Shown piece by piece: positions 2,088 to 60,500 of a stretch of 64,000 nucleotides of DNA. The stretch's first letter is position 1. Every line of letters starts with the position of its first letter. The stretch is from positions 9,590,031-9,654,030 of the forward strand of contig JAJEKV010000013.1 of NCBI GenBank assembly GCA_021234155.1. Reading direction: 5' to 3'. The position numbers and the translations under genes are program-made. The notes below the pieces were generated by a model. The model was given only the letters and a program-made list of their open reading frames with translations. It made no database searches and was not told where the DNA came from. This stretch comes from Isoetes taiwanensis (Eukaryota; Streptophyta; Lycopodiopsida; Isoetales; Isoetaceae).

Positions 2088-2248
2088 TTTTTTTTTTTTT
2101 TTGAGAGAATGGGGTTTTTTCATTAATTATAGAAAAAGATACATTAGTGTGAGTGAGCCATAAAGTTGGCTACTCAAAATAGAACTTACAAAAGCAAAGT
2201 AACATAAACAAAAAATAGCATAAGTAGCTGCTATGTAGCGGGGAAAAT

Positions 2249-2776
2249 TTATAGTTTTGAAGTAATTGTCCGCCTTGTGGAAGAAACTGCATTGCTGCAA
2301 CCAAAATAATCGAGTAGTAAGCATTGGAACAGTGCTGCTGACAAGATAATGTTGACCAGAAACCTGTAGATAAAGAACAAGAGGATTTGGAAGTGCTCGG
2401 ATTGGTCTAAAAGGTGGATGAAACAGGTAGATGAGATCAGATTAGAAATGATAGGACGTGAGGTAGTCAAGGTTTGGGTGAAAGTCCGGGTCATGAGAAT
2501 AAGGATGTTACCATTTCCCCAGTTTAGCTCTTGGATCAACCTGTCTGCATTAGTTGTGGACATCAGGATGATGAGTGTGCCATAAGCATCTGCTAGGCAT
2601 CTATGGTGATAATAGCATTGTCTGTAATACTGAAATTGCTCATGTGTCATCATTCTACTGTTGCTTTCCATGAACCACCATAACTGTACCATTAAGTGAG
2701 TGCCTCTGCAGAATTCAATTACCCAATCAATTTCATTGTGCGGAATGTGCGGGATGTCAATGTTTGTGATGCCCAC
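2249..2776 (-). other. Open stretch in the 3' region of L-A
   Basis: A 175-codon open stretch between the recognisable end of ORF2 and the poly(A) tail. The first two-thirds (WVIEFCRGTHLMVQLWWFM onwards) looks protein-like; the last third is hydrophobic and reads through the 3' UTR. I do not recognise a domain, and an RNase H active-site pattern is not visible. It may be the degraded C-terminal extension of ORF2 or chance. Confidence 0.3.
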
Positions 2777-3002
2777 GACTAGGCATGTCCATAATCCATC
2801 ATCGTGTATTGAATGTCATGTATTAATCTATGTCCTGGGAAAAGTCTGTACTCTGCTGGCTCTACTGAAGTGTTGAAATCTTTGTTAAGGCTCATCATGT
2901 AATCTAGCAGGAAGATAGTCATTGTCAGTAAGTGTGATATTGCCATTTAATTTAAACAACAATTGATAACCAATAAAATTTCCAAAGCCATACCATTTAT
3001 TG

Positions 3003-6000
3003 TCAATGAGAATCCTTATCTACATGCATTTGACTAGTTAAAGTCATTTCAATGTCATAAATGACTTGTGTTTTATCCAATGTGTAGATGATGCATTTAC
3101 CTCCATAATGACATCTGTTTCTATGTTTCCATACATTCCATAATGCAATGAAACATAAAGAATTTTTAAAAGCTTCATCATTCATCATGAACTTCAGCGG
3201 GGTAGGGGCATTTTATATTGAAAGTGTCTTCAAACCATAGCCAAAGGAAGTGAGCGACACACAGAAAATGTGTTCTAGAGTCTCTACATTACCACAGCCA
3301 GGGGGCAATTGGGATTAATGGAATGAGTGTTGATTTGAATGCCTTGAAATCATTTCAGATTTGATAGACTTTTGTTTGCAACAAGCCAAACAAAGTAAAA
3401 GATTTTGAGGGGTAAATAGGAATTCCAAATGTTTTTAAACAATCTGGTTTCAGTTTCATCTGAGAACCCCCAGTATAATTTGGCTTTTGAAGGCGTATTT
3501 GACTTGTTTAGATAGCTGTAGACTTTGGAAACACTGTAAATAGGCTTATCAGATAAAGTCCAATCAGTACAAATTGGATTATCCATTGGGTTAATATTGC
3601 AGACCCTCTGCATGATGTGTCTAAAGAAAGATCATGCACGAAGAAGCGCCTCTTATTTTTGTGTTTGAGTTAGTCCAAGACATCCATCTATTTTGATCCC
3701 AAAGATCACCAAAGTCAGGATGTTATATTCTTTCCATTTTTTATAAAGCTTTTTATGCCTGATAGCCAAAGGAGTAGAGCTGTCCCTTGAGAAATTAGAG
3801 TTCCAAAATATGCTTGTGTTTATATGACTTTTATCAATGCTCAGTTGTTGGAAGGAAGTATGAACCTTGTTCCAGGCTGCAATCATGTTTCTCATAAGAG
3901 GGGAAGTGTGAGAGGCTGGTTTAAGAGTTGTAAAAATTTGAATGAGGCAAGTTATGAGTGATGGAAGCATGCCTCCTTGGGTGACTGCAAGAAAGCCAAT
4001 AATTTATAAAGATAGAGGCAGCGTTTTTAGTGGAGAATAAAGACTTCCAAATATATTTGCCACCTAAAGCATAACTTTGCAGAATCAAATTCTTGCAACC
4101 TAGCCCCCCTTGGATTTTGCTCCTGGTAACTGAAGGCCAATTAACCATGTGATGTTTTCCCCATATGAAGTTCGACAATCCTTTCAATCGTTGGTAAAAT
4201 ACATTTAGGAGCTAGAAGAAGCGGATGAGAAGTAGATGTGAGAGGATGCAATGGCGAATTTGCAATTAAAGTTCTCCACCGAGAGAGAAAGGCAGGTTGC
4301 CATAATTACCAAGTTTCTTTCTAATTCTATCTACTATGGGGTTCCAGAGACATTTGAGGCTTGGATTGAGGGATAGAGGCATGCCAAGAAGTTGAGTTGT
4401 CTCAGTAGGCTTCATACATTTTAAGCCTGCAATACTATCAGCATTAAGGTCTCCAATGACAGAGCATTTATTTTTGTTTAACTGAATACCCGAGGCAGAG
4501 CCAAAGTTGTGTATAGTATGTAAGAATGTTTGAATGGTGCTCAAATCGCTTTTGAGAAAACTAAAGGAGTCATCTGCATATTGGAGGATTGAGAGATTTG
4601 TGGTGTTATCAGGTAAAGTGAGACCAAGAATATGGCCATTGGCTTGGAGATGAGAGATGACTCTAGTTAACATTTCAGCAACAGCAAGGAATAAATAAGG
4701 GGCAAGGGGGCACCCTTGTCTGACACCTCTAGCCAAAGGGAAAAAATATCCAGGGGATCCATTTATTAACACAGTAGATTGGGATCTGGAATTAAGACCC
4801 AGGATCAGGTTGATGATCTTCTGATTGAAACCAAGTTTCTCAAGAGACAATTTTAAGAAGTCCCATCTGACTGTATCAAATGCCTTAGAGAAATCTAGCT
4901 TTAGAAGGATACAGTCTTGATTTGTCAATTTGTTCCAGTGAAGCCCCTCCATGGCTGCAATGTAATTATCGAGGATAAACCTATTTGGGAGGAAGGCAGA
5001 CTGATTAGAACTAATGACTTCTTGAAGGTGAGATTTGACCCTGTTTGCAATGATTTTTGCACAAACCTTGTAAGTGGTATTAGTTAAGGAAATGGGTCTC
5101 TAATCAGAGAATGTTGTAGGATTGTCAGATTTTGGGATCAAAGTGATGAGACCGGTAGGATAGAGAAGGGTGCAAGTAATTTGAATTCGGTAGCCTTTAA
5201 CCATGAACATAAAAGTCGGTTTTGATAGTGTCCCGAATTTAATGTAAACCGGGTGGTAAACCATCGGGGCGGGGCTTTTCCCCTTGGCTAGACTTTTGAG
5301 AGTTGATAAAATTTCTTCAATGGTAGGGGGAGCCTCAATGGCTTGGGGCATGACAGAATTTCTGTGAAGACCATTATGATTGATCATGTTTAAAAGAAGC
5401 GGCCGGTGATTGAATAGGTGTGTCGGCGGGGTGGGAGAAGATCTTGGCATATTTGGACAAAAAAAAAATTGGAAATATCCTTTTGGTCCTCCAAAGTATT
5501 GTCATTGTCATGCAATGCTAGATAGTGACTTTTCAAAAGCCTAGATTTTGCCACCCTATAAAAAATTTTGAGTTCCCATGATCCATTTTGGAAAATAATT
5601 TGAGCTTGCATCTAATGGAGGACCCTTTGGCTTCTAACTCTTCTATTGTCTTGATGGCCATCTCAAGATTTCCCTCCGCCAATGAAGGTTAATATTATGA
5701 GGATCCACTTGAAGTTTCAATCTAACATCTTTCATTTCTTTGCGGATAAGCTCTTTTTTCAGACGACTTCTTGTCATGATGGTGTTTGGACCATTTTTAA
5801 TCAGGATTTAGACTCCTTAAGATTGGAGTAAAAGGCCCTCATTGAGCTTGATAGATCTAACTCTTGAGAGAGTTGTAAAAGGCAACAAATTCTCTTGCCA
5901 AAAGTTTGATTCCAAAGGGGAGCAATTGAGCTTGAAGGGGTATTACCATGTCTTTTTATAGAAAGCATATGTTTGGTAACGAAATTGAGGTTGATGGTGG

Positions 6001-13559: not shown

Positions 13560-13967
13560 TATCACATTGCTATCAAACTCGTGTGCATTCTTTATCAGAC
13601 ATCTAGTTCATAAATATGTGGTACCTACAAGAACTATTGTTAACATTTGTTTCATATTTTTTCGGCTTAACTTTTCTTTCGCATTTTTATTAGTTTCAAC
13701 AAACTTTTCGATATTATTTTAGATACTTTGATTAGAGTAAGGGAATACTTTATGTATTATACTATTGTATAATAAATTAAAATTAGATACTTAGAACAAA
13801 TACCTAAGAATATACACGGCAAGGATTAAACAAAAGGTAGACAACACATTTATATTCCAAGCATGTATACCTATGAAGAGTTTTTATACCTCCCTACTTT
13901 GCGCCACCCTATAGAAAACCCTCTAAACCATCTCTAAAAAAACCCTCCAAAAAATTGCACTCTAGTG
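13560..13967. other. AT-rich stretch, no gene seen
   Basis: AT-rich sequence with no coding frame, repeat or RNA gene that I can recognise. Confidence 0.5.
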
Positions 13968-14051
13968 AAATTTCTATGGTAAAATTTATGACATATGTCT
14001 CTTATGCCATAAGTCAGATATATTTCTTTGTAATATCATATATGAGATATG
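13968..14051. repeat. Left part of the ATATGTC tandem array
   Basis: Degenerate copy of the roughly 75-80-bp unit that continues at 15636 (words ATATGTCTC, ATAAGTC, ATATATGAGATATG). It ends in GAGATATG (14044-14051), one copy of the 8-bp target duplication of the LINE at 14052-15635. Confidence 0.7.
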
Positions 14052-15082
14052 AAAAGAATGGAGGTCTTGGTACCATTAACATCAGAAAACAGGGTTTAGC
14101 TTTAGCTGCTAAATACTTCTACAGGGCTTGTTATGACAAGATAAAGCATCCTATATCCATCCTGATCAGACACTATATCAGCAAATGTCATCCGTATGGA
14201 TGGAGAATTCTCAAGATGGAGTTGCCTCACTCTATCTATTTCCCTTTTTCCATCCCTGCTTCAACTCCAGGTATTATCAAAAAATGGATCCATGCTTGGG
14301 AAGAAGTCAGACATATGTATAATTGGGAAAAGGGTCTCTCGATGGATCAATCAATTTTTTGGAACCCAGCCTTGATCCTTGATAATCCCAATTTGTGCCT
14401 GGCTTGTCACTTCCCTGAGCAAGCCAAGCTTTGGAAACAAAAGGGAATCACTCTCATCAGCTATCTATTTGATGCCAATGGTATTATCCCCTTTCGGGCT
14501 TCCGTTCTTGCAGATGAGGATAATCAAACCAAGCTGCTCTATGAAGCCATCACTAATATCATATTGCAGGGCAGATGGTCTCACTCTCCAGACTCGTGGA
14601 AACACAATGGTAAAAGTGGTTACACAGTCAAACTGGCTTACAGATTCTTAATGAGCTATCAGGAGATCACAATCCATTCAAAATGGGATGTCTCCCAGGA
14701 AACAGCAAGGAAAAACCTGGTTTTTATGTGGAACAGCCCCATCAACCCAAAGATCAAAGCCTTCATGTGGCAACTTTGGCATAAAGGCCTTGCTACCAAC
14801 TGTAAGAGATTTCGTTTAGCTATGACTAACTCGGATTTATGTGACAGATGCTTGGCTAATAAAGAAGATGAAGAACACCTTTTTAGAACACTTTACATGG
14901 TGGGGTGGGTTTTGGAACTTGCATCCAATATCTTTGGCCAAAACCTGGTTGCCCTGAGCCACAAAGACTTCTTTATGCCTACCAATCCATCCGATTGGAG
15001 AATTTATATTCTCCTATGGAGAATTTGGAAAGGAAGAAATAGCTTTATTTTTAATTGTGAAATTATCCCAGGAGGATCATAA
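14052..15082 (+). pseudogene. LINE-C ORF2 C-terminal fragment with zf-RVT
   Basis: The frame is open for about 340 codons. It begins with GGLGTINIRKQGLALAAKYF, the thumb/connection block that follows the RT domain. Near the C-terminus lie PINPKIKAFMWQLWHKGLAT and CDRCLANKEDEEHLF, the zf-RVT pattern, and then IYILLWRIWKGRNSFIF. The last cysteine of the usual zf-RVT pattern is missing (HLFRTLY rather than HLFxxC). The endonuclease and RT active site are absent, so it cannot function. The open frame continues a short way upstream into the tandem array by chance. Confidence 0.8.
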
Positions 15083-15635: not shown

Positions 15636-15946
15636 GAGATATGTCACACGGTACATGTAATGGTCATATGTCTCATAAGTCATATATATGTCTTTGTACT
15701 GATATATATGAGATATGTCACATGGTATAAGTAATGTCATATAGCATATGTCTCATAAGTCGTATATATGTTTTCGTAATGCCATATATAAGATATGTCA
15801 CACGGCATAGGTAATATCATATAGCATATGTCTCATATGGTACGTGTAATGTTATATAGCATATTCTCATAAGTCATAACTCGGAAATATGCCATATACC
15901 CTGCTTATATATGAGATATGTTACATGGTATATCTAATATCATATA
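15636..15946. repeat. ATATGTC tandem array, middle part
   Basis: About four degenerate units of 75-80 bp. AGATATGTCA recurs at 15637, 15711 and 15791, and a variant at 15914. Each unit also has CATATGTCTCATAAGTC. The last 11 bases before the next element, AATATCATATA (15936-15946), are repeated at 22321-22331. Confidence 0.8.
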
Positions 15947-15952
15947 ATGCCA

Positions 15953-15980
15953 CGGTTCTATTGCGACAGCAATAGAACCG
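15953..15980. repeat. Perfect 12-bp stem hairpin at the element's 5' end
   Basis: CGGTTCTATTGC (15953-15964) and its exact complement GCAATAGAACCG (15969-15980) enclose the tetraloop GACA. The second unit keeps the core of this hairpin (TCTATTG at 21382, CAATAGA at 21395). Confidence 0.9.
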
Positions 15981-16419
15981 ACATTCCTTGGATGGGGACG
16001 TCCCTTTGTCACTCCTATTTATTCAGCCTCTCTTCATTGTTCTATCATCGGCGTTCTCTTGAGCTAGATTTCTCCTTCTTCTCTATCCTATCAGTTTCCC
16101 TCACCCTAACCCTACCAGAATTTCGCCTCTCTTCAACCTACCAGATTTTCTAGCCTCGCGTATCCACTTGATTGCTGTAGTTTGCTTGGATGTGGAGACA
16201 GGATTTCGACATAAGCTCTCGGTAGGTCTATGTATTTGATTTTGGCGACATCTTCTGCGTACTTCCTTTCCCTCCTTCACTGGGCACAAGATAAGGAGTC
16301 ACAGCCATTTGGATGCAAAGCTTCTTATCTTGCTGGATGAGTGCATGTCCATGGTGTCACGGGTTTTGAGGCATCACATAATTTGGATCTTCTCGACCCC
16401 TGGGTGCGAGGGCGGGAGG

Positions 16420-19400
16420 TCGGATGTTGATATTCTTTTTTTTTTTCTTTGGACGCATCTTGAAGGGAAACCTCTGCTTATGGTCATCTCCCAGGAGATT
16501 TATTTCTCTTGCTTTTATCCTTTGATTGTCCAGTTCTAACTCATGGTCTCTTTTGGGCATTTGAAGTTTAAGGTCAGTTTTAATGTCTTGTCTTATGTTT
16601 TAATCTGGCAAAGAATATTTAAGACATGGCTGGCTTTTGCCGCCTTTGTGCATTTCTAGTATGATATGTTTAATCATTGGACCTGAATTTGTTTCATGTT
16701 TCCTTTGTTTGTCTTTCTTTTTTTTTAAGAGTGGGTTCAGTGCATGTACGCCCATGCATATAGTTTTTGTTTACGGGTTCTTCATATTTTTGTTCCCGGT
16801 TTGAAGGTGGTGGTTTTCCTGTAAAGTTTGTTTTCTGCATTGCCACAACCATTAGCTTTGTGTTTTTTGGAGTTGGATCGGCATCATGATTGATCTTACA
16901 TTACAGGTGCATACACTGGTTTGGTTTTTTTTTTTTCTATATGGTTTAGCTTTGTCCACCAACCATGTCTTGGTCTATCACTTTCAATCTGATCCTTTAA
17001 ATCGGTGGCGTTTTAATTCAGTCAGGGCTTGCTTCTCTCTTTAGTCCCTTTTAAGATTACATTTGTAGCTCAAGGAGCATTGAAATTCTAATTGGTTGCC
17101 GTAAATGTAATGTATTGCGGTTTTTTGCATGGACTTATCATCGATTTGGTAAAGTAATGGCTTTTACTTTGTGACAATGCTGACGTGCACCCACTTATAA
17201 TTTGTCCTGTATTTTGTTTTCATTCTATTCCTGCCACCATGCCTTTATTATAGTTAGTTTTTTATTGCAATCCAGCCACCACTAACTTGAGTTGGACATT
17301 ATTAGCATAGCATCTTTATTTTTGCATACCTTATCAAAGCGCATCTTATCTCTCATAAAATCGAGCTTGTTCTTTATGAACTTGTCTATTTTTAGCACAT
17401 TTGTCTTTTTGATGAGACTTTAAATGCACACGTCTTTAGGTCTTTATCATTTTGCTTGCATATCTTTTTTATGGCCTTAAATGTTCAACGTATTATCAAT
17501 TTGCATCTTATTCTTTTATCCATGAAGGATGTTTTAGGGGCAAAGGTTTTCGATGGGAGCGGTAAGGTGCACTCCGCGGTCATTTGGTTGCTCAGTTGCG
17601 GGCCTTCAGACCAATTGTAGCACCCCTGATATTGGGGTGGCCACCTTTTCTCCCATTTTTACTTTTTTAAACTATGGCCATCTATTTTAACATACCCGTT
17701 TTTGTCCCTCTATGTTTGCAATTGACACGTGTTGTTTGGCTCTAGATACGAATGTTACAATCAAGATGCCAACTCATGAGGTTCCGATGATGGGTATCAA
17801 CATTTTGGTTCGGTGGTTGTTATTCGATACGGTACATTGACCACATTGGTTCTCTTGGTGCCATGGCCCGTTGTTGGTCCATTATTTTGATAAGAAATTA
17901 GTATTATTTTTTTGAGCTCCTTAATCGTTTGCATTCTTTCTCTATTTGCCATTGTTTTTTTCTTAGATCTTTATATCCTCTTTGGCATATTTGGTCTTTA
18001 CACATGCACCACATAGATGGGAGCATTTCCTTTTTATGTTTTGGGGCATGCGTTTAGGTTTGTGGTACATCTTTGTCTCATTTGAGCATTGGCCCATATT
18101 AGGCGTCGTTCCAATCATCACACATGTTAGTTAGTTGATGTTTTCATAAATGTGTTTGGTCTATTTCTTGCATTCTTGGCCATTAGAGTTTGGATGCATG
18201 GGCCTTTTTGATTTTTAGTGGTGTAGTCATGCTCAAAGTCCCTATTGTGGTTTTGGATTATGATAACATTGAGAATCATTTTTATGATGATGTGTTTGAT
18301 TTGATGGTCACATTTGTTTTTTTTTTTTGTTAAAGTTACATGTTAGAGTTGTAGGGTGTTTTATCGGGTGATTATGTCATACTTCGATTAGGTGTCGTGT
18401 GGAGGAAGGCCCATCTTAGCATGGTAAAGACATGATGATGATCTTCTGAACGTATTTTTCTTTTCTTTCATTTATATGTCTATTTCTCCATTTCTCTATT
18501 TATATTGATCAAGTGTGGTCTTATACGTTTCACCTAACTTCTCTTAGTCCTTTTTTTGCTCTCGATATCCTCTCATTTAAGTGGTTTGCTCTATACTCCC
18601 CTCATTCTTGGTGGCTCCATTTGACTTATGATGATGTTAAATTCGAGATTGGCATCATTCTTGTTTTCTTTTTCACGGTGGCTAGTTTCTATTGACAGAT
18701 ATTAGTTCGCACTCCTTTTCATTCTTGTTGGTGCTTTATTCCATTAGTCCTCTCATCATTGTCAATCTCAGAATATCCGTTGTTGATGTAGTACTCTTTA
18801 AGTTAGGTCTTTTCTGTCAATTATTCTTTGCCTCTAGCTTACTCCACTTTGTTGCTTGATATCATCATTTTTGTTAATTTAGATTTCTGTGAATTTGTTT
18901 GTTATATTGTCCATCTGCTCACCTCTGCTTTATTAGCCTTAGATTGGTTTTAGCCTCCTTTAGTCGGCTTTCCCAAGTTTCTTGTTTTCCCAAATTCTTT
19001 GGGCCTTTATTTTCGGTGTTCGTCGATAGAACCATTTTTTGCTCTATGATCTTGCTGGGCTTTGTTGGCATCTTCGTTTCTTTTGAACCACTTGATTTGC
19101 TTTTTCCGTTGAGTTTTGCTACATTGCTCTATCTCGTTTCTACATTCTATGCTTTCGAATGCGGGTGGTTTATTTGCTTGTTAGCTTTTGGTACCCTTGG
19201 TGGGTCACTTCACCTATATCTATGCTTCATCCTTTTTTGAGTTGCTACATTGCCGCGGCCCCTTTTTTGTCACAGAAAGTTCCTTTGGTCTCAGTCACTC
19301 CATTGTTTCCTATTAGCTCCGTTTACTCTTTTATTTCTGTCATTTCATTTGCTCCATTTGCATTGTACCATTGCCTTAAGCTAGTCCTTCAAACTCCATT

Positions 19401-21330
19401 GCCTTCATTTTACTCTTTACGATGTTTTATATACTCTCTTTAGATATTTGGTACCATGGGTTTCAATTCTCCGTTTTCCTGCCTAGTTCTCTTCTTGCAT
19501 TTGCTAACCCTATGCTTTTGTTACAACCCATTGTCCCTCTGGACTGGTTGCTCAGTTTAGCCTGATTGCTTAAATTTTTCCAGGATTTCTAATTTTCAAG
19601 TACTTCAGGCCTTTATTTCCAGTTGTTCAAGTTTGTCTATAGGTTTCTTTGTTTTTAGGCGTTTTTACTTTTGTCATTTAGGTACTTCTTTGCCCCCTTT
19701 TATCCAGTTTTATGTTTTTGTGTTTTTCGCTCTGACCCTTTGTTGCCTCCATTTCTAGATTTGTTTCGCTTGCTCCATACGTCCTATTAGCCTTGTCTCG
19801 AACTTGTTTAGTCCATCCGCTCGTTGTTGTTTCGTTAGTCTCAGTTTGTTTGCTAGTCCCATCTGCTCATTCCATGGCGGGATATTAAATACTATCTATC
19901 TATCTATTATTCTTGGTTTCCAAGTACTTTGTGCCTTTAGGTCCGTTGTTTCTCTATATATCACATGCCTTCTTGTTTTGGCCTTTTTTTATTCGTACCC
20001 TATTTCTCCCATTTGACCTCCTTTTTGTTCTGTCAACTTTCCAACTATTGTTTTTTCGTGAACTTTCAAATTCATTTCTTTCTTGTTGCATGACGTTATC
20101 TACCTATCATGCACACTGTCACCTGTGTTTGCTCCATTTTCTTGTTTGCCCTTGGTTTTTGATACCCTTGGTCACTTCTGAGTTGTTGCATTGTCACCTT
20201 CTTCTTTCGTTGTCCTAGTTTGGTATCAGTTGTTCCATGGTTTCCTATTTGTTTCCTTTTTGCCTTTATTCGACTCTTTACCATGTTTTTAGTTTAGCAC
20301 CATGGGTCTTATTTTTTCCATTTTCCTGCCTAGTTCTCTTCTTATGTTTGATAACCCTATGGTTTTGTTACATTTTCTCCATTATTTCTTTTGTACGTTT
20401 TCTCCCTTGTCCCTTGGTCATATCTGCATTTTTTCATTTGCCCCGTTCGGTTGTTTCTTTTTTCGCTTCTTGTCCCCTATTCTTCGCCTCCTTTTTATTT
20501 GCTCCTTTAATCTATTCTCTATTTTGCTTTGTTGCCCCCCGTTATTCTCTTCCTTTTGTTCTTTCTCGGCTGACATCATGTTTGCTTAGTCCTTTGTTTA
20601 GATGTTTAGTTCTTAGTTTCTTTTCTTTTTGTCATATCTCCCTCACCTCTTGTTTTGCCTGGGTTTTTTCCTTGGCTCTGATTATCTCGGTTACTCCTTA
20701 GCCTTGCCCAGCTTTTTGTTTGTCCCATTTTCTTGTGTATTCTAGCCATCCTATTCTACCATTTTTCTTTGTTTGGCAATTTTGTTGACTTCTTTTTGCT
20801 CTTTTAGTTCCTTGTTGGTTCGTATTTCTATCCTTCCTTTTGTTCCATGTATTCATTTGCTCCCTGTGTGTTTTTTCATTGTTTGTTCGTTATTGTTTCC
20901 TTTTCTCGCCCGCTTTTTCTTTGAGTCTTGTCCCTTCCACCTTCTCCTCTTTTTTTCTTTCCACTCTCTTTTATTAGACCTTTTTACTTTTGCTTCACTT
21001 TTTTGTTTTCTTAGTAGCCTTGTTTCCCATGCCACTATCCGTTCTGGCTCCCACTTACTTGGCTCCTTTTCTACCGTTTTATGTTCTTCCTTTCTATGTG
21101 TTCTTCTTCACTCGTCATTCCTCCCATCGGCTCTTTCGATGTTTTGTCTGTTCTTGTGCCTTTGTTGTTGCCATTTTTAGATCCATTTTATTCTTTGTCC
21201 CATCACCTTATACATGCATTCTTTTCGGTAACCCTTGTAGACTCGTTTCTCCCTTTCTTTATACTATATTTCTCTTTAGCTTCTCTTCTTTTCAGTCTCC
21301 ATGCTGAGTAGTTTTTGAGTTTGTTCCTCT
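16420..21330 (+). other. Pyrimidine-rich, non-coding interior of unit 1
   Basis: Nearly 5 kb strongly biased to T and C on the plus strand. The many open frames here encode only Phe/Leu/Ser/Cys-rich low-complexity strings and are composition artefacts. Degenerate long-period repetition is visible. The phrase TTTTCCTGCCTAGTTCTCTT occurs at about 19484 and 20321. TACCCTTGGT and TCAAGTACTT/CCAAGTACTT phrases also recur. I see no tRNA, rRNA or protein signature. Confidence 0.6.
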
Positions 21331-21371
21331 TCTATCGGCCAGTATATGTCTATCATAGGACCCATCCTAGG

Positions 21372-22320
21372 AACCCGCGTTTCTATTGCGACAACAATAG
21401 AGGCAGGCATTCCTTGGATGGGAAGCGTCCTTTGTCACTCCTCCTATTTATTGACTTCTCTTCATTGTTCTATCATCGGCGTTCTCTTGAGCTAGATTTC
21501 TCCTTCTTCTCTATCCTATCGGTTTCCCTCACCCTCCCTCCCTTGGTGGATTTATGCGCACTTGATCTTTGGCAATCGTTCCGGATTGTTTCTATATTCT
21601 TTAAGTGCATTATTCATGTTTTCTCGGCGTGGCATAGTAGCCTCCGAGGCATACTTATCGTTCTTTCTCGGCGTGGTGCTGTAGCCTCCAAGAGTACTTG
21701 CTATTTCATTTTTCTCGGCATGGCGTTGTAGCCTCAGGAGGCAAACACTAATCGGTTGATTCGCGATGGTTTTAGGTGGATGGTTCCCGATTGGTCATTT
21801 TGTTGTTTCTTCCTCGGCGTGGCCACGGAGCCTCCGAGTGCTATTATATTCTTGATTTTTGCACTTTGGCACAGGCTTATGCCTGAAGCTTCTAACTTTC
21901 TAACGGGTTATTCTCCTTTTCAAATTCCATTGCAGGTCATTTTCTTGTAGTTCTTTCAGTTGTCAGCGTCATCATTTCGGCGAACGCATGCTAGCAGCAT
22001 TCTTCAAGAGTGTTGGCGATTGTTTCTTGTTAGGGTTTTCCTCGAAAATCCGAAAGGGCGGGGTTTTTCATCCCGACGAGAAGCAGTCATCACATTTCCC
22101 ACATTTTGTATGGACAATGCGGTGGATATATCATTTTTTATCTTGTATCCCTAGTTTCTCATGCTCTCGATGATTGTCTAGTTTCGGAGCATGCAGATTT
22201 CAAGTGTTTTTTCAAAAATTATATCCCGTTGGGGAATCAATTTGTACTAAACGATATTTACAAAGCTCAATGAGAACACCGGTCCGGCCAGTATATGCCT
22301 ATCATAGGACCCATCCTAGG
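21372..22320 (+). repeat. Unit 2 of the composite element (949 bp)
   Basis: Its first 160 bp match the start of unit 1, and its last 36 bp match the end of unit 1. Between them are four short stem-loops (21623-21838) and a block AGGGTTTTCCTCGAAAATCC ... GGGGTTTTTCATCCCGACGAG (22031-22080). That block resembles the GGTTTTCCC / GGGGTTTTTA phrases found in transcribed termini of plant retroelements. A similar phrase lies in the 3' region of the LINE fragment near 61700. Confidence 0.6.
21623..21838. repeat. Four related CTCGG...CCGAG stem-loops
   Basis: CTCGGCGTGGC-loop-GCCTCCGAG or close variants occur at 21623-21648, 21667-21693, 21714-21740 and 21813-21838. The outer CTCGG/CCGAG and inner GGC/GCC pair in copies 1 and 4; copies 2 and 3 are partly decayed. 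Confidence 0.75.
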
Positions 22321-22530
22321 AATATCATATAGCATATATTTATCTATGAGATATGTCACGTGGTCCATATGGCATATGTCTCATAAGTTATAAGTCAAAT
22401 ATATGTCATATGGCATACGTCTCGAATGTGATAAGTTGGATATATGTCACATAATATATATAATAACATATATGACGTATGTCTAATATGCCATAAGTCA
22501 AATATATTACATGTAAAGTTGAGAGGTATG
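22321..22530. repeat. ATATGTC tandem array, right part
   Basis: Resumption of the array seen at 13968 and 15636, with GAGATATGTCACGTGGT, CATATGTCTCATAAGT and two to three further degenerate units. Confidence 0.75.
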
Positions 22531-22954
22531 TCACATTATCGAACTCTTGTGTGTAAAGTGAGAGTCCTTGTTTTTATATTACCAATATTGACGCAGTACT
22601 GATATTATTATCAGTATTGGTGTTGATAAGTAGCTCTTAGTGGGTTCTGGTCTCTATTACATTCCACCCATATAAGTTTGATAAGGCGGTTATCTTTCTT
22701 CGCCTCGACTGATAATAAAAAATGCGTGGCCGACATCGTGTATTCGAGGCCAGAGATTTGATCACATAGCCAAATCACACTGACCCCAAATTTGGCTCTA
22801 TGTGTAGTTTTTTGCTGTCTTTTTTGTAGAAAAACAACACTTAAAGCCCACCTGTTGTTTTGTTCCGAAAATGCTAGAAACAACATGCAAGTTTTTGGCG
22901 AAAAAGTCTATGCATAGAAAATTGACAGCCTTTTGAGAAAAATTCAATGCATTG
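22531..22954. other. No gene seen
   Basis: Unique AT-rich sequence. A 91-codon minus-strand frame (22886-22611) has no recognisable features. Confidence 0.4.
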
Positions 22955-28735: not shown

Positions 28736-30345
28736 AAAATTACAGGAGGGCATCTTGCCAAGGTGACGTTGGCAAAATTTGGGTGACATGGCACCTAGCC
28801 TCCATAACATGCCAAAGTGAAAAAAATGCCACCTAGGCTCAAACATGCCATCTAGGCTCAAATATGCCACCTAGGCTGCAACATGCCAAGGTGGCTCAAC
28901 CAATGCCACGTGGGCTCCAACATGCCAATATGGCTCAAACCCACCTAGGCTCCAAGATGGGGTGGCTCAAACATACCACCCGGGCTCGAACATGCCTAGG
29001 TGGCTCAACCATGCCCGCCAGGCTCCAGCGTGCCACCTAGGCGCCAGCGTCGCTCAAACATGCCACCTAGGCTCAAACATGTCACCTAGGCTCCAACAAG
29101 CCACCTAGGCTCAAACATGCCACCTAGGCTCAAACACGCCATCTAGGCTCGAACATGCCAAGGTGGCTCAAACATGCCACCTAGGCTCCAATGTGCCAAG
29201 GTGGCTCAAACATGCCACCTAGGCTCCAACATGAAAGGTGGCTCCAAACATGCCACCCTAGGCTCGGAACATGCCAAGGTGGCTCCAATGCCGTGGGCTC
29301 CATGCGTGGGCTCCCAACATGCAAGGTGGCTCAAGCGTGCCACCTAGGCTCCAATGTTATGCCAAGGCAGCTCAAACATGCCATCTAGGCTCCAACATGC
29401 CAGCGTGGCTTAAACATGCCACCTAGGCTCCCAACATGCCAGGTGGCACAAACATGTCACCTAGGCTCCAGCATGCGGTGGCTCCAGCGATGCCACATGG
29501 GCTCCAACATGCCACCTTGGCATGTTGGAGCCTAAGGTGGCATGTTGAAGCACATGTGGCATGTTTGAGCCACCTGTGGCATGTTAGAGGCATGTTTGAG
29601 CCACCTTGCATGTTTGAGCTAGGTGGCATGTTGGAGCCCACATGGCATGTTTGAGCCACTTTGGCATGTTGGAGCCTAGGTGGCATGTTTGAGCCTAGGT
29701 GGCATGTTGAAACCCGTGGCATGTTTGAGCCCTGCTGTGGCATGTTGGGCCTAGGTGACATGTTGGAGCACCTTGGCATGTTTGAGCCACCTTGGCATGT
29801 TGGAGCCTAGGTGGCATGTTTGAGCCTAGGTGGCATGTTGGAGCCCGTGGCATGTTTGAGCCACCTTGGTATGTTTGAGCCTGGGTGGCATGTTGGAGAC
29901 TAGGTGGCATGTTTGAGCCAATCTTGGCATGTTGGAGCTCGGGTGGCATGTTGGAGCCCGTGGCATGTTTGAGCCGCGTTGGCATGTTGGGCCTAGGTGT
30001 GGCATGTTGGAGCCCACGTGGCATGTTTGAGCTTAGGTGGCATGTTGGGCCTGGGTGGCATGTTGGAGCAAACCTTGGCATGTTGGAGCCAAGGTAAGCC
30101 AAACATGCCAAGGTGGCTCAAACATGCCATGTGCCAACATGCCACGGTGGCTCAAACATGCCACGTGGACTCCAACATGCCATGTGAGCTCCAACATGCC
30201 AAGGTGGCTCAAACATGCCACCTAGGCTCAAACATGCCAAGGTGGCTTCAACATGCCACACGGGCTCCAACATGCCACCTAGGCTCCAACATGCCAAGGT
30301 GGTGCAAGCATGCCACCTAGGCTCAAGCATGCCATCTAGGCACTC
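28736..30345. repeat. Left CATGCC/CCTAGG tandem array
   Basis: Dozens of degenerate copies of a roughly 40-bp monomer built from ACATGCCACCTAGGCTC and AACATGCCAAGGTGGCTC half-units. The orientation flips inside this array: plus-type to about 29515, reverse from 29520 to about 30095, plus-type again to 30345. Open frames reading NMPPRLQHAK-like strings are products of the repeat. TTGGCAAAATTTGGGTGACA at 28768 recurs nearly identically at 30440, so the array seems to have expanded between two copies of one original sequence. Confidence 0.9.
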
Positions 30346-31465
30346 CAAATGGTGACTTGGCATGCCAAGTAAGCAAGGCCAAGTTTTGACTAGGCCAAAA
30401 ATGAAAAGATGTCCATTTTTTGTCTTTTCATTGGGTGATGTTGGCAAATTTTGGGTGACATGGCTAGATGGTGGTGACATGAACATGATGACTAGGACTT
30501 TATACAAGAAATATGATAACCTTTGGAATTTTTGGTAGAGGAGTTTGGCAATGGATGATCTTGCGCTGACACCCTTCCCCAAATCGAACTAGGCCAGGAC
30601 TTTGCGCGGCTTCCTCACCAGAGGGAAGAGGCCAGACCCCAGGGGACGAAGCTCAGAAAGGTTGTCGAGGCGGCCTTTCCGCCGCCGCTCCTTGGGGCGG
30701 GCAAATGCCAATGCCCCCTTTCGAGCTTCGACTTCTCTATCCGGCCAGTTGAATCCACCGTTCAAGTAAACTTCGGCCGAAAGGGTTCAAAAAAATCAAG
30801 ATCCGTCCAGGAAACTTATCAAGCGGGAAGGCGTCTGCGTATTTCGACCATGTAGAAACCCAAGTGTTTTGTCGTTCAGCGATTACAAAGGCTCAGGAAT
30901 GGAGATTCGACTTACCGCCATGTCGTAGGAATGGTGACATTACCCTAGGGACCAAGTTATCACGGTCATTTTTTGCAATGAAATAAACATGAACCCTTTA
31001 CATGACTATATTTTGCAGCCATCTCTTACGCCAATTGACTAGGAACGTATTGGACATGAGCTACTTTGGCGCTTCTTGGAGAAAGAGTGGTCTTCTGCGC
31101 ACGAAACTTGGTCCCGAGGATAATCTCGACGTTTTTAGTCCATTGGCAAGTCAGTTTACAATTTCGGAGTGGGAGAGTTGCCTGTCCGTGGCCAAGGGCT
31201 TTTGGGAGAGGACCTTTGGGGTGAACTGCTTCCGGAAGGTTTTAGGGGGTCCATCTGGCGTCAACACCCTCCCTCTATGTGATGACATTGTGCAAGATCC
31301 TAGTCGAATCTGATTAGGATATGGCCTCCGACACATAAACCCTGTGTGTTGCTAGGTTATTGAAGGGTTTACGTTTTGGAGGCCGAGTTTTTGTCGGTTG
31401 CACTTGGGACATGGCCGAGAAGCTGCAATTAAAAACGCGAGGCAATATGGGGTTTGGATTTATCC
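30346..31465 (+). repeat. Left inner arm of the foldback
   Basis: Unique-looking sequence whose reverse complement is at 31530-32680. It includes a coding-like stretch (31002-31313 plus) with VLDMSYFGASWRKSGLL and SEWESCLSVAKGFWERTFG. The other arm keeps LNVLDMSYLGASWRKSGL. Neither frame is intact across the arm, and I do not recognise the protein. Confidence 0.75.
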
Positions 31466-31529
31466 TCCTCCCATAATGGCAAATAGAAGCCAAAGAGCCC
31501 TTTGCATTGCAAAATTGTTTGGGATCATT

Positions 31530-32680
31530 CGGGATAGCCAATAGATCCAAACCCCATTCCTTCAGTTCCTATTGCTTCATGTTTTTAAGCTGCGGCTTCT
31601 TGACCATGTCCCAAGTGCAACCGACTAAATCGCGACCTCCATAGCGTAAACCCTTCAATAACCTAGCAAACCACGGGTTTTCGTTTGGAAGCCATATCCT
31701 AGTCCGTTCGACCGAGGATCTTGCACATTGTGATCCGTAGAGGGAGGGTGTTCATGCCGGAAGATGGACCCTTAAAACCTTCCGAAGCGGTTCGCCCCAA
31801 AGGTCCTCTCACGAAGGCCCTTGGCCCGCGGATGGGCAACTCTCCCACTCAGGAACTATAAACCCGACTCGCCAATGGACTCAAAACATCGACATTACTC
31901 GAAACCAAGTTTAGGTGGGAGGAAGACCACTCTTTCTCCAAGAAGCGCCAAGGTAGCTCATGTCCAATACGTTAAGAGTCAATTGGCCTAAGAGGTGGCT
32001 GCAAAATCTTTGCCATGTAGAGGTTCGTGTTTCTTTTTGTTGCCAAAATGAGTAGTGTAACTTGGTTCCTAGGGTAAATTTGCTATTAGGGATGACATGG
32101 CGAAGTCAAATCTCCATTTCGGAGCCTTTATGCTTGCTTTCGAGCGACAAAACACTTGGGTTTTCTGTGGTCGGCCGCTAGGGCGCTTATGATTTGATAA
32201 GTTCTTTTCGGGCGAATCTTGGATTTTTGAATTTACTTGAAGCGAGGTTACTTGGGCGGTGGATTCAGCAATTCGGATAGGGAAGCCGAGCTCGGGGGGG
32301 GGCATTGGCATTTTTCCCTCCGGAGGATCGTTGGCGGGAAGGCTACCTCGCAACCTTTTTGAGGTCCGTCTCCTAGGGTCGGCCTCTCCCCTCCGGTGAG
32401 GAAAGCTGCGCAAAGTCCCGGCCTGGTTCGATTTGGGGAAAGGTGTCAGCGTTTAAGTTCTTCATCCCTTGCCAAACTCCTCTACCAAAAAATTCTAAAG
32501 GTTATCATATTTCTTGCATAAAGTCCTAGTCATCATGTCCACATCACCACCATCTAGCCATGTCAACCAAAATTTGCCAACATCACCCAATGAAAAGACC
32601 AAGATGGACATCTTTTTATTTTTGGCCTAGTCAAAACTTGGCCTTGCTTAGTTGGCATGCCATGTCACCGCTTGGAGTGC
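31530..32680 (-). repeat. Right inner arm of the foldback
   Basis: Reverse-complement partner of 30346-31465. A 114-codon minus frame (32413-32069) with MPMPPPELGFPIRIAEST corresponds to the left arm's QMPMPPFELRLLYPAS. The arms differ by scattered substitutions and small indels, so the palindrome is not recent. Confidence 0.75.
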
Positions 32681-34760
32681 CTAGGTGGCATATTGGTGCC
32701 TAGGTGGCATGCCTGAGCCACCTTGGCATGTTGGAGCCTAGGTGGCATGTTGGAGCCCACATGGCATGTTTCAACCACCTTGGCATGTTTGAGCCTAAGT
32801 GGCATATTTGAGCCATCTTGGGGTGTTGGAGCCCGCATGGCATGTTTGAGCCACCTTGGCATGTTTGAGCCACCTTAGCATGTTTGACATGGGTGGCATG
32901 TTTGAGCCACCTTAGGTATGTTGAAGCCTAAGCGGCATGTTGGAGCCTAAGTGGCATGTTGGAGCCCACGTGACATGTTTGAGCCACCTTGGCATGTTGG
33001 AGTCCATGTGGCATGTTTGAGCCACCTTGGCATGTTTGAGCCTAGGTGGCATGTTTGAGCCATCTTGGCATGTTTAAGCGTAGGTTGATATTGGAGCCTA
33101 GGTGGCATGTTTGAGCCACCTGTGCATGTTTGAGCCGAGGTGGCATTTTGGAGCCAACGTGGCATGTTTGAGCCACCTTGACATGTTTGAGGCTAGGTGG
33201 CATGTTGGAGCCACCTTGGCATGTTGGACCTAGGTGTCATGTTTGAGTCACCTTGGCATGTTTGAGCCTAGGTGAGCCTCCTTGGCATGTTGGAGCCTAG
33301 GTGGCATGTTGGAACCACCTTGCATGTTTGAGCATAGGGGCATGTTGTGAAGCCCAGGTGTGGCATGTTTGAGCCACCTTGGCATGTTGGAGCCTAGGTG
33401 GCATGTTGGAGCCACCTTGGCATGTTTGAGCCACCTTGACATGTTGGAGCCTAGGTGGCATGTTTGAGTCACCTTGCCATGTTGGAGTCTAGGTGGCATG
33501 TTGGAGCCCAGGTGGCATGTTTGAGCCACCTTGGCACTTGGAGCCTAAGTGGCATGTTGGAGTCTAGGTGGCATGTTGGAGCCCACGTGGCATATGCTGG
33601 AGCCTAGGTGGCATGTTGGAGCCACCTTAGCATGCTTGAGCCACCTTGGCATGTTGGAGCCTAGGTGGCATGTTTGAACCACCTTGACAAGTTGGATCCC
33701 GCATGGCATGTTTGATCCACCTTGGCATGTTTGCGCTTAGGTGGCATGTTGGAGCTCGCGTGGCATGTTTGAGTCACCTTGGCATGTTGGAGCCTAGGTG
33801 GCATGTTTGAGCCACCGTGGCATGTCAGAGCCTAGGTGCCATGTTGGAGCCACCTTGGCATGTTTGCGCCACCTTGGCATGTTTGAGCCTAGGTGGCATG
33901 TTGGGCAAGTGTCATGTTTGAGCCACCTTGGCATGTTTGAGCCTAGGTGAGCCTCCTTGGCATGTTGGAGCCTAGGTGGCATGTTGGATGTTTGAGCCAC
34001 CTTGGCATGTTGGAGCCTAGGTGGCATGTTGGAGCCACCTTGGCATGTTTGAGCCACCTTGACATGTTGGAGCCTAGGTGGCATGTTTTGTGTCATAGTG
34101 CCATGTTGGAGTCTAGGTGGCATGTTGGAGCCTAGGTGGCATGTTTGAGCCACCTTGGCACGTTGGAGCCTAAGTGGCATGTTGGAGTCTAGGTGGCATG
34201 TTGGAGCCCACGTGGCATATGTTGGAGCCTAGGTGGCGTGTTTGAGCCACCTTGGCATGTTCGTGCCTAGGTGGCATGTTGGAGCCACCTTGGCATGCTT
34301 GAGCCACCTTGGCATGTTGGAGCCTAGGTGGCATGTTTGAAGCCACCTTGACAAGTTGGATCCCGCATGGCATGTTTGATCCACCTTGGCATGTTTGGGC
34401 TTAGGTGGCATGTTCAAGCTCGCGTGGCATGTTTGAGTCACCTTGGCATGTTGGGGCCTAGGTGGCATGTTTGGCGGCAAGTGGCATGTGCCGGACCTAG
34501 GTGCCATGTTGGAGCCACCTTGGCATGTTTGAGCCACCTTGGCATGCCCGAGCCTAGGTGTCATGTTTGAGCCACCTTGGCATGTTTTGAGTCACCTTAG
34601 CATGTTGGAGTCTATGTGGCATGTTTGAGCCACCTTGGCATGTTGAAGCCTAGTTGCCATGTTGGAGCCACCTTGGCATGTTGAAGCCTAGTTGCCATGT
34701 TGGAGCCACCTTGGCATGTTTGAGCCACCTTGGCATGTTGAAGCCGAGGTAGCATGTTTG
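32681..34760. repeat. Right CATGCC/CCTAGG tandem array
   Basis: The same monomer as the left array, here mainly reading GCCTAGGTGGCATGTTGGAG and GAGCCACCTTGGCATGTTTG. Higher-order copies are visible: the block around 33250-33540 is repeated at about 33920-34165. It contains no switch of orientation as clear as those in the left array. Confidence 0.9.
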
Positions 34761-34855
34761 AAGTCAAATGCTAGTGAAGTGTGTCAAGCATATATAACTC
34801 TTGTATCTTTGCCATTTTGTGGCAATAATGGCATGTGGACAACTTGATCATACAT

Positions 34856-56403: not shown

Positions 56404-57447
56404 ATGGAGAAGGTGTGTATGGGCCCCAATGGGCCCAAGCAGATGTATTGGGAACAGTGTAGGGATGACAAAGGGTTGGATTTGGTACTGTGTGGATCCA
56501 TGGGACAACAAGGACAACAGGAACAGGAACAGATCAATGGGAAAGGGACAGAATGGATGGAATTTGAAAAGCTTTATAAAGGCCTGTCAAATCAGCAGCA
56601 GAGATCCATGATTGAACTCATAACGTTCCTGGGAAAGGGGAATACTGGCAAAATAGTAACAGTGGGAGATTTTCTGGTTGATACCGGTACAATGGGAGAG
56701 AACCGACCGATCACGCGAATGCAGCAGGGAGCTCCAGTTGCAAGGATGCAGAGCCATTTAGCCCAACCCATTTTGGACCAAATTAACGAAGAACAGAAGC
56801 GTATACTCCAAGGACAGAGGGGGAAAGGCATACCGGAATTCCGAGGTATTCCTAACCTCAAGCATGCTGTGATTCCTGCTAAACTTAAAGAAATGGAACT
56901 TAAGGCTGTAATAGGGTGCATCCGTCACGAAGGAGTCAAACTGATGACCATAAAAAATGAAATTTGCAAAATGGCCAGGGGGTTGGAGATTAATGGGATT
57001 TACTGGTTGGATTTCCCCTTTTTTGTTGTAGAATGTGGGAATGAGAGAACTATAACCCACCTGCTCAAACAGGGCACAATGTTTATGGCCAACACTCAAT
57101 TCTATTTTCAGAAATGGAATCCTAAGTTTGATCCACAGAACCTGAATCAATTGTTTCATCCTGCCTCGGTTTCTGTTCAAGGATTAAACCCAATATACTG
57201 GCATGAGGACGTACTCAAACTACTCTTCAAGGATATTGGAGATTACATTGGCTGTGAGATCATTTCTGAAAGGGCCCCGAAGGTATGGGTTCAACTGGAC
57301 ATCCTTAAACCTATACCCAAATTCACTGAGTGTCTGGATTTTTTTGACAGTCCAAAGAAGCTTAGTCTCAATTGGTTTGGATTACCCAGCCCATGCAATA
57401 TATGTGGGATTAGATTGCATGGAGGGGGAGTATGTAAGGATACATAG
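56404..57447 (+). pseudogene. L-B ORF1: CCHC-knuckle Gag-like protein, C-terminally truncated
   Basis: A 347-codon frame starting at ATG 56404, the first good start after the leader. The first 130 residues are Gly/Gln-rich and variable. The core EINGIYWLDFPFFVVECGNE and LNPIYWHEDVLKLLFKDIGD aligns with L-A ORF1. It ends with a CX2CX4HX4C knuckle (CNICGIRLHGGGVC) and TAG at 57445-57447, only three residues later. L-A has more than 550 residues after its knuckle, so this ORF1 has lost that tail by deletion or nonsense change. The protein would bind LINE RNA. Confidence 0.8.
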
Positions 57448-57528
57448 TCGGTCAATTCTGTAAACCCCACTCCAGATGCTACTCCAGCCAATACTCTATA
57501 CAAAGGAGAAGGGACCCACAAAAAAAGG

Positions 57529-60500
57529 GTGGAAGATGAGTGGAAGCAAGTCAACAACAGAAAAAATGGAAAAAAGAATACAAATGGGTCAATAGTTTCC
57601 CTAGAAGTGGAAGGGGAACCTTTAGCCATAATCAATGTCTATGCATCAACAGAACCTGCAGAAAGAGAGAAGCAATGGGAGGACATGGATAGGTGGCTAG
57701 CTCAAAAAAATTATGCCAATATTCTGATGGCTGGGGACTTCAACAACACCCCAACCTGGGAGCAGAAATTTGGCAAAAAGATAAATATGTCCAGGAAAGA
57801 AAAATTCATATGGGATTCCTTGACCTCAGAATTTTGCTACATTCCTCCCTCATCATCAAATGTGTATTCATGGTCAAATAAGAGGAAGGGGAATGATAGG
57901 ATCTTTTGTCTGTTGGACATATTCTATGTGAAATCTCAAACCATCCACTGCCTGGACAAGGTGACCATTGACAATGACATTGGGAACTCCATCTCTGATC
58001 ATTATCCACAGATCTTGTCCACTCCAGCACAGGGCAAGAAGGGAGGAACTAATGTTCCTTTTAAATTCAACACTGATCTCCTCAAAAACAAATCCTTCTG
58101 TCATGAATTTAAAGAATTCTACTCCTCCCTGCAAAAGGTGGAGAGAACATCCTCCATTCAGCTTTTTCTGGATAAAATGAAATCAGTCAAAGGATGGGTC
58201 AAGAAGTGGGGTAAAAATTGGCATAACCAGAAAAGAAAGGAAAAGCAAGAAGTCTATTGCAAGATCAGAGAAATTAGGGAACTTTTGTTTAAAGACAAGG
58301 ATAATATAGAGCTTCAGAAGAAAGAGGAGGAACTGGAAAGGAAGGTTAAAGTCATTGAAGAAAATGAGGCTCGAACTTTGACAGTTAAGAGCAGGTGTAA
58401 ATTCATAAATGAGATGGATAAAAGCAGCTCAACTTTCTTTTTTAGGGTTGCTAAAAATAGACTTATGAATAATGGGATTGTAAAAGTCAAGGCTCCTAAT
58501 GGGAAAACAATAGATAAACAAGAAGACTTGGAGGTTTACTTCAGAGAAGCATATGAAAGTTTATTTGCTGAAAAAAGGGTGGACAGTAAAAAATTGGATG
58601 AATTTTTTGATGCCATTCCCAGGAAAAATGTGCAGATTGAAGAAAAAGACATCCTGGAGACTCCACAAGAAAGAGAAATTCAGGATACACTAAAATCAAT
58701 GGAATCTGGGAAAAGCCCGGGTCCAGATGGGTTCCAACCTGAATTCTATGTAGAATTCTGGAATTCTATGAAGGATGATCTGGTGAACTTTTTTCAAGGC
58801 CTCTGGAGGGCCAACTTCATGAATCCAGCTATAAATGCAGGGCAGATAGCATTAATTCCAAAGATAGATAATCCTGTTGCTATTGGGGATTGGAGACCTA
58901 TCACATTGACAAACACTACATATAAGGTTATGGCTAAAATCTTGGCCAACAGAATCAAACCTGTTCTCCAAGAAACAATAAATCCATGCCAGTCAGCTTT
59001 TTTGCCCACAAGGAACATTTTGGATAATTTTATTGGAGCCAGTGAAGGTCTTCATTGGAACAGACTTTCTGGCCAAAAATGTATGCTACTGAAATTGGAC
59101 TTCAAGAGAGCATATGACACAATCAATTGAGAATTTTTGAGGAGAGCTATGAGCCACATGGGTATGTCTGACAACATCTACAATTTAGTGTGGAAATTGA
59201 ATGCAACTGCTTCTTCTGCACTTATTATTAATAGTTCCCCAACAAAAATGTTTGAATGCAGAAGAGGGGTTAGGCAAGGCTGCCCTTTGGCTCCTTACCT
59301 ATTTCTAATTGTTGCTGAAATGGTTACTAAGTTGGCCTGCCATTTGCAAAACTCTGGAAAGATCCATATCCTCAGTCTCCCAAATTCTGCTGAGCCTTTT
59401 GTCATCATGCAGTATGCAGATGACACTTTTGTTTTCCTAAAAGAAGATGATCATAGTCTTCAAAATTTTATGGAGGCTTTACAGTCTTTTGGAGAAGTGT
59501 CAGGGGTACAGCTTAACAAGGACAAGTGCTCCATTATTAGTGATAATGACCAGACAGAAATGTTGGGAATTAAGGTAGTGGGGAAAAAGATGGCCACCAA
59601 ACTTTTGGGTTTGCCTCTGGCACTGAATAGCACTTTACATGGTCTTTGGGAACCTCTGGTCAATAGGATAAAGAAGAAACTCATGCTTTATCCAGCATCC
59701 TTGTCATTAGCTGGAAGGGTGGAGATAGCTAACTCTGTAATAGCTAGCTCTCATGTATACTTTTCTTCTGCAATTGTTGCAGATAAAGCTTCATATAACA
59801 ACGTAGAGAGTGCCATAAGGAAATTTATTTGGCAGGGTGCACATAAGGCTGCTTGGACTGATATGACAAAACCAAAGTCAAAAGGAGGGCTTGGCTGCAA
59901 GGATCTGTTTATGCAGGCTCAGGCATTAGGAGGGAAGATGGTGTGGAGAGCAATTCACAGCCACAACCCTTCTCCTGCCCTTAAACTGATCCACTATTGG
60001 GTAGACAGATCATATCCAGTTGGCAATCACACACTCAAACACTTACTCCCAAATTCTGCTTTTTTCCAAGCTACTCCACACTCTGAAACATCTCCCCTTA
60101 TGAGAAGAATCATCCAGGCATGGAACCAAGCTTTGTTATGTTTTAGACCTCCTGAGATTGATGCCCGATGCAGAGAAATTAACTTTTTCTGGCATCCTGC
60201 TTTTGGGTTCAATCAACAGCAAAATGATTGTCTAGCCCTTACCCATCCTCAGAAGTACATGCAATGGTTTCATGCTGGCCTGCAGAAGATTGGAGATCTT
60301 ATGGATGGAGATGGCTGGATGACATGGGAGGTGGTGAAATCTCAGATCAAGGGATCCACTCTGGACAGGAAAATATACTATAGAATAATGGATATAGTGC
60401 AGGAATTTGGAGACTTGGCCAATAATTCCAGTAAATGGACCCTAAACAACAAAGAGAACTATGAGGTTAGGGATATATATAAGGCATTATTGGATACCCA

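Follow-up and report, generated by a model that had tools for sequence, protein, structure and literature searches.

What kind of element interrupts the AT-rich host repeat at positions 15947 to 22320 of a 64,000-nucleotide stretch of the lycophyte Isoetes taiwanensis (contig JAJEKV010000013.1; the whole stretch is called the window below)? An earlier note, made from the letters alone, described an unclassified composite of two head-to-tail units with identical ends, unrelated interiors, and a flanking 11-bp target-site duplication (TSD). We are highly confident that the insertion is instead one non-autonomous element, a DIRS-order retrotransposon whose direct repeats are split as in the PAT/Ngaro type. 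It has the split-repeat layout, belongs to a family with coding relatives that share this layout and have related ends, and sits at an AAT without duplication of the target; its mobilization in trans by this group of tyrosine recombinase (YR) elements, most likely through the conserved ends, is probable.

Layout of the insertion and its copies in the genome

Repeat comparison within the window resolves the insertion into the order A1-body-B1/A2-C-B2, that is, split direct repeats in which B1 adjoins A2. The two A copies are 89.6% identical overall and 99% identical over 79 nt of their length, the two B copies (compared over 21336 to 21373 and 22285 to 22322) are 97% identical, and the repeat spacings are 5425 and 949 bp, as the earlier note gave. 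We searched the genome assembly (G000; 1,658,258,908 bases in 1110 contigs) for these blocks. The 5' block returned 1465 first-look candidates, of which the best 40 were scored and all 40 match. A 21-base pattern for the 5' end has 332 genome matches, a 29-base pattern for the 3' end has 303, and a pattern for the B/A junction, with a gap of 0 to 30 allowed, has 385; each reversed control has 0. The junctions among the matches listed all read CCTAGGAATGCCACGG, with no spacer. The paired 5' and 3' blocks that the note had reported are therefore real and far beyond chance.

Their arrangement tells against two units. Five further full copies were fetched (L031 to L035), and four of them (L031 to L034) consist of a 5' block, 5 to 6 kb, a 3' block and a 5' block adjoining each other, 0.4 to 1 kb, and a 3' block, while in L035 the inner of the two 3' blocks (B1) is missing. 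Because the order A1-body-B1/A2-C-B2 recurs in these four of five copies, the long part and the short part belong to one element, not two. Solo A-C-B copies of ~0.87 to 1.15 kb with unrelated outer flanks (L022, L026, L030, L044, L045, L046, L048, and L049) are probably the remnants left by recombination between A1 and A2. The window's spacer C found 2443 candidates, the best 40 of which were scored and all match. One copy, C1059, is 92% identical to the window's 3' region over 1190 aligned positions, with the 3' end of the element in the expected place and no A1 within the stretch fetched. In another, L032, a perfect tandem duplication of 764 bp lies within the body at positions 2105 to 3632, either recent or an assembly artifact.

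The window copy is unusual in that its A1 and A2 are 90% alike, versus 96 to 100% in seven other aligned copies. This might point to a chimera of A1 and A2 from different subfamilies, but the two blocks differ mostly within the first ~65 bp of A2.

Insertion at AAT without target-site duplication

Flanks were compared in 21 copies, namely the window, 13 loci for which the outer flanks on both sides were available, and seven fetch pairs matched by coordinates, which a nested insertion could have mispaired. The comparison omits L047, L012, and L013, which have a B end or its remnant as left neighbor, the remaining loci from the 5'-block search, which lack one outer flank, and the coding copies L042 and L043 (see below), which have different end letters and whose own flanks carry AAT on both sides. 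In 20 of the 21 copies, the best match between flanks is 2 to 5 bp long and within chance; 420 mismatched flank pairs gave matches of 1 to 7 bp, with none reaching 8. The AAT itself recurs: every left flank (21/21) carries A at -3 followed by T at -1, with A at -2 in 19/21 (G in 2), and right flanks begin with AA in 21/21 and have T as the third base in 17/21.

If an AAT of the element was crossed with an AAT of the target, the empty site should read CTAATATCATATAATATCATATAGCATAT. This sequence occurs in the genome once exactly and 13 times with mismatches: one mismatch in eight places, two in two places, and three in three (control, 0). Three of these 14 element-free places were fetched and compared with the joined flanks of the window element: L066 is 92.4% identical over 595 positions, L065 is 90.7% identical over 548, and L064 is 94.4% identical over 162 without a gap. 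In each of the three, a model with an 11-bp TSD costs 10 additional gap positions and scores lower. The earlier claim that removing 11 bp restores the host array exactly thus fails, since the paralogous sequence is obtained by counting only the 3-bp AAT once. The letters of the supposed duplication do flank the element, but host-repeat paralogues hold AATATCATATAATATCATATA without any insertion. In the joined host stretch, a doubled neighborhood exists at this AAT alone among the 14 AAT sites tested; as element-free paralogues carry the doubled stretch, the doubling is older than the element.

Other loci behave in the same way. When the flanks of L060/L061 were joined with one AAT, the junction (position 68) was crossed in 40/40 matches, the best 40 of 1542 candidates, mostly along bases 1 to 92 at 95 to 96% identity and with no length difference; from base 92 or 93, the right flank often resumes ~53 bases on, a length difference of the host repeat away from the junction. 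The junction of the joined L042 flanks was likewise crossed in 40/40 (the best 40 of 114 candidates), and eight of these align over 297/297 bases by coordinates. The family inserts at AAT without a TSD. An apparent TSD inside a satellite may be an illusion of the kind that a search for paralogues dispels.

L060/L061 (G000:C290, near 504828 and 511197) mark an insertion at the center of a host-repeat palindrome, AAAATGAGAATCTCATTTT, possibly reflecting a preference for hairpin-forming targets.

Coding relatives and the bodies they may mobilize

A genome search with PF00589 (phage integrase) yielded 75 matches at E <= 0.01 among the 148 of 246 candidates scored; 68 are above the curated cut-off and 67 have no in-frame stop inside the match. 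The domain was found in 14/14 prokaryote controls, as expected. Six YR loci were excised (L036 to L041). In L036, L038, and L040, CCTAGGAAT joined to an A block lies ~50 bp after the YR stop, and a second CCTAGGAAT follows 727 to 880 bp downstream of the first. The other three (L037, L039, and L041) form a second YR lineage, with 49% protein identity to L042, and L041 has its own 39-bp direct-repeat pair downstream of the YR.

Two copies, L042 and L043, were read further. Within ~7.6 kb, L042 contains, in order, A1, two gag-like frames, a frame for reverse transcriptase (RT) and RNase H, a YR frame whose stop lies just ahead of B1, B1/A2, and B2. The adjoining gag-like frames (156 and 210 amino acids [aa]) match no Pfam family at E <= 0.1 and are named by their position and a CCHC-like motif (zinc-knuckle match at E 0.2, below the cut-off). 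The RT-RNase H frame (677 aa) matches RVT_1 at 2.6e-16 and RVT_3 at 3.9e-4 (20.8 bits, just under the cut-off of 21.6), followed past RNase H by a Dam-like match to PF05869 below the cut-off (E 0.027; 14.6 bits versus 28.1). The YR frame (326 aa) matches Phage_integrase at 6.8e-10. L043 shares this layout, with a YR frame of 328 aa, but its RT is broken and it lacks the RNase H part. R165, K192, H274, R277, H297, and Y309, which we take to be the catalytic residues, are invariant in 6/6 aligned YRs.

The ends tie the window element to these copies. Its A is 86.8 to 90.7% identical to those of L042/L043 over 53 to 56 bp, its B1 region 79.8 to 81.2% over 101 to 114 aligned positions, and its 3' part, including B2, is 76.7% identical to L038 over 202 positions; the window, L036, L038, and L040 have exactly the same tip, TAGGACCCATCCTAGGAAT. 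The note proposed to look for an autonomous relative. The same genome contains a coding relative, L042, which pairs this end layout with frames of gag-like, RT-RNase H, and YR type. The element need no longer be called unclassified: the split direct repeats at its ends are those of a YR retrotransposon.

The A block begins with a hairpin (Table 1) that none of 200 shuffles folds as well as; in the aligned A1 of L042, its stem is kept by a change from C-G to T-A on both sides. The fold of the B end is no more stable than those of its shuffled versions (z -0.95). A also contains CATTCCTTGGATGGGGACG, present in L042 and L043 too, a TATA-like CTATTTAT, which is TTTTTATA in L043, and TCATCGGCGTTCTCTTGAGCT, which is kept in L042 and altered in L043. 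A1 is a putative promoter.

Table 1. Parts of the element and adjoining host sequence (positions in the window)
Feature	Positions	Strand	Basis
Host repeat, AT-rich, ~40/80-bp periodic, left flank; resumes on the right at 22324-22560	15640..15945	+	Element-free paralogues L064, L065, L066
Left AAT core, overlap common to target and element end	15946..15948	+	Flank letters of 21 copies; predicted empty site has AAT once
A1, left split direct repeat: terminal hairpin, TATA-like CTATTTAT, TCATCGGCGTTCTCTTGAGCT block	15949..16107	+	Repeat comparison, genome-wide matches
Hairpin with 12-bp stem near the 5' end of A1	15953..15980	+	-13.8 kcal/mol as DNA, z -9.4
T-rich non-coding body	16108..21335	+	Composition; partial relatives in other genome copies
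B1, internal copy of right repeat	21336..21371	+	97% to B2; same tip in YR loci L036, L038, L040
Core position at B1/A2 junction; AAC in the window, AAT in all genome junctions listed	21372..21374	+	
A2, internal copy of left repeat; differs from A1 mostly in its first ~65 bp	21375..21535	+	
C, spacer from A2 to B2 (interior of the earlier note's second unit)	21536..22284	+	
B2, right split direct repeat, terminal CCTAGG	22285..22320	+	
Right AAT core	22321..22323	+	AA in 21/21, third base T in 17/21 paired-flank copies

The window copy itself has no coding capacity: its longest stop-to-stop frame is 160 aa, and tblastn comparison at 1e-3 with the L042 frames (gag-like, RT-RNase H, and YR) gave no match in it or in L031 to L035. 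Without such a match, it is a non-autonomous derivative rather than an autonomous member, as the note had supposed in finding no coding capacity. At 1e-6, blastn with the L031 to L035 bodies covers 0% of its body, and the bodies of these six non-coding copies have no nucleotide match at 1e-6 to those of L042/L043. We rejected a simple deletion of a coding element as the source of the body, given that neither the protein (1e-3) nor the nucleotide (1e-6) comparison gave a match in the six copies. Unique cargo was ruled out by partial relatives elsewhere in the genome. Among these (best 40 of 296 candidates scored), C1059 is the closest, at 90% over 4.45 kb, and the others match in segments with recurrent ends near query positions 1194, 2564, and 3493. 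The matches in C4, C952, C778, and C922 lie 0.3 to 2.6 kb upstream of a listed B/A junction on the same strand. The bodies therefore appear to be mosaic within the family. The idea of conserved ends with freely exchangeable cargo is partly borne out: over its whole length, A1 is 95 to 99% identical to the A copies of L031 to L035 and C1059 while the body is uncovered by L031 to L035, but segments of that body are common to other copies in the genome.

The bodies also have a composition of their own. In the window, T makes up 36 to 51% of each 600-bp step of the element up to 21346. The AT skew is -0.37 to -0.43 in the six non-coding copies (15947 to 22323 for the window), with a T-rich, A-poor sense strand, and -0.32 and -0.44 in the coding-type L042 and L043; in the window flanks (~2.9 kb), it is -0.04. 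A T-rich sense strand is therefore common to bodies without detectable similarity. Avoidance of poly(A) signals found no support as the cause, as sense AATAAA counts are about as low as composition predicts. We offer as a tentative, rather doubtful suggestion that this vascular plant hosts a large YR system whose members require in cis just the A and B ends. A helper would then carry bodies that are unrelated yet always strongly T-rich, and the T-rich sense strand (U-rich RNA) common to coding and non-coding members would itself be a requirement for packaging or replication.

Mobilization, rival explanations, and related systems

We propose that RNA would be transcribed from a promoter in A1 and copied into cDNA in trans by the RT/RNase H of an L042-type relative. 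The ends would then be joined into a circle with the junction CCTAGG-AAT-GCC, for which the internal B1/A2 would serve as the guide copy, and the relative's YR would cross the AAT of the circle with a chromosomal AAT. Circle formation guided by the internal junction is a model from the literature on such elements.

Several observations weigh against this account of the locus. The window is alone in having an 11-bp flank match (AATATCATATA), so that the argument from paralogues is needed, and L064 to L066 are paralogues, not an allelic empty site. The AAT is imperfect, with AAA, AAC, or AAG in 4/21 right flanks and AGT in 2/21 left flanks. Three of the six YR loci fetched (L037, L039, and L041) have no CCTAGGAAT end. 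Over its whole length, the window's A1 is only 64 to 70% identical to the A copies of L042/L043, which are therefore relatives of the element and not necessarily its helper. Mobilization in trans is suggested by the related ends, and its RNA, cDNA, and circle steps are a proposal.

Each of the rivals accounts for part of the evidence. Tandem Helitrons, rolling-circle elements that insert between A and T, have a CTAG-containing 3' end, form head-to-tail arrays, and share ends around captured interiors, would explain insertion between A and T without a TSD, the CCTAG near the 3' end, and head-to-tail junctions of constant form. This reading is disfavored by the coding relatives, although no search aimed at a Rep-helicase was made: coding copies combine this end layout with RT and a YR, and B1/A2 follows right after the YR stop. 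The long-then-short order is moreover fixed in 4/5 fetched copies, unlike a random array, and we regard Helitrons as very improbable. The note's own model, two separate elements of an end-recognized family of no known class inserted in tandem with an 11-bp TSD, draws on the 11-bp flank match of the window; none of the 420 mismatched pairs reaches 8 bp. It conflicts with the doubled stretch in host paralogues that have no element, with the lack of a TSD above chance in the other 20 copies, and with the doublet being the usual form of the family and of its YR copies; we give it almost no credence.

A derivative of a long terminal repeat (LTR) retrotransposon (a large retrotransposon derivative or a terminal-repeat retrotransposon in miniature) or a Penelope-like element with pseudo-LTRs would fit the long non-coding body, the direct terminal repeats, and the solo copies. 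The terminal repeats are split, however, with A and B apart and no intact LTR pair, no TSD stands out from the mismatched pairs (4 to 6 bp would be expected for an LTR element), and the associated recombinase is a YR, which makes this origin as implausible as the two-element model, although no search aimed at a DDE integrase or GIY-YIG endonuclease was made. A ribozyme-bearing, retrozyme-like element was also rejected: an Rfam search of 15800 to 22500 at E <= 1 gave two matches below gathering scores, neither of them a ribozyme. A DIRS-order element with split repeats thus remains our reading.

The host deserves the same care. The copies listed lie on several contigs above 20 Mb, and outside the element the window has retroelement frames at 4269 to 4952, 13955 to 15079, and 56404 to 60522 (RT pieces, zf-RVT, DUF4283, and a weak endonuclease match), which we read as long interspersed nuclear element (LINE) type. 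Both make contamination by another organism unlikely. The window also contains large arrays at 28822 to 34761, with ~19-bp units carrying GGCATGTT or its complement and Tandem Repeats Finder scores of up to 1381.

Published accounts of DIRS elements in plants differ. In the passages available, a 2022 review excludes land plants from the hosts, and a 2011 survey (PMC3266345) finds green plants devoid of DIRS1-like elements, with unconfirmed, similarity-only copies in Plantae. Among later sources, a 2019 review (PMC6696364) credits plants with DIRS in its available text without detail, and a 2024 review (PMC11630846) names DIRS among plant classes in the part at hand; an atlas table (PMC8729191) has a handful of automatic DIRS calls in plants. 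The plant ALOG domain has been derived from a DIRS1-like recombinase (PMC3537659, 2012, in the portion available), so that contact of streptophytes with DIRS1-like elements was, to that extent, proposed earlier. DIRS is not mentioned in the main text of the genome papers on I. taiwanensis (PMC8566536) or I. sinensis, and the listings of a literature search that excluded supplementary files, subscription papers, and Repbase showed no account of such split-repeat elements with a YR from any lycophyte. The element is thus of a known kind, in a host that is new within the literature found. With hundreds of junctions, open frames in a coding relative, and empty-site evidence exact to the base, this is a well-supported case of DIRS in a land plant. 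The family can be checked for in other lycophytes, which may distinguish vertical descent from transfer.

Among known systems, TOC1 of Chlamydomonas is similarly long, with split repeats and little coding capacity, a likeness of description and not of sequence. Split direct repeats are described for PAT, Ngaro, and VIPER in the passages available (PMC4157794, PMC8547959, PMC6681497, and PMC8969392), the last of which also gives DIRS elements as lacking TSDs and A1-internal-B1-A2-B2 as a possible layout. By the definitions in the available text of PMC4157794, the family resembles PAT-type elements (Pat1, Toc3, and kangaroo) in its A1-B1-A2-B2 repeats, RT-RNase H, and YR; the CCHC-like motif and weak Dam-like match of L042 might also recall PAT, although both matches lie below their cut-offs. 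It differs in its lycophyte host and in the non-coding window copy. With Ngaro, laid out as A1-[ORFs]-B1A2B2 (ORFs, open reading frames) according to the available parts of PMC8547959 and PMC4157794, it shares internal repeats downstream of the YR, and the solo AB repeats reported in the former resemble the solo A-C-B copies here. Ngaro, as far as these passages go, lacks a methyltransferase domain, of which L042 has only the sub-threshold Dam-like match; the Isoetes family is set apart by ~0.24 to 0.75 kb between A2 and B2. SIRE is VIPER's non-autonomous counterpart and, in the available text of PMC6681497, corresponds to its A2-B2 stretch, just as the solo copies here correspond to A2-C-B2; SIRE belongs to a different lineage and host, and the window copy retains A1, a long body, and B1.

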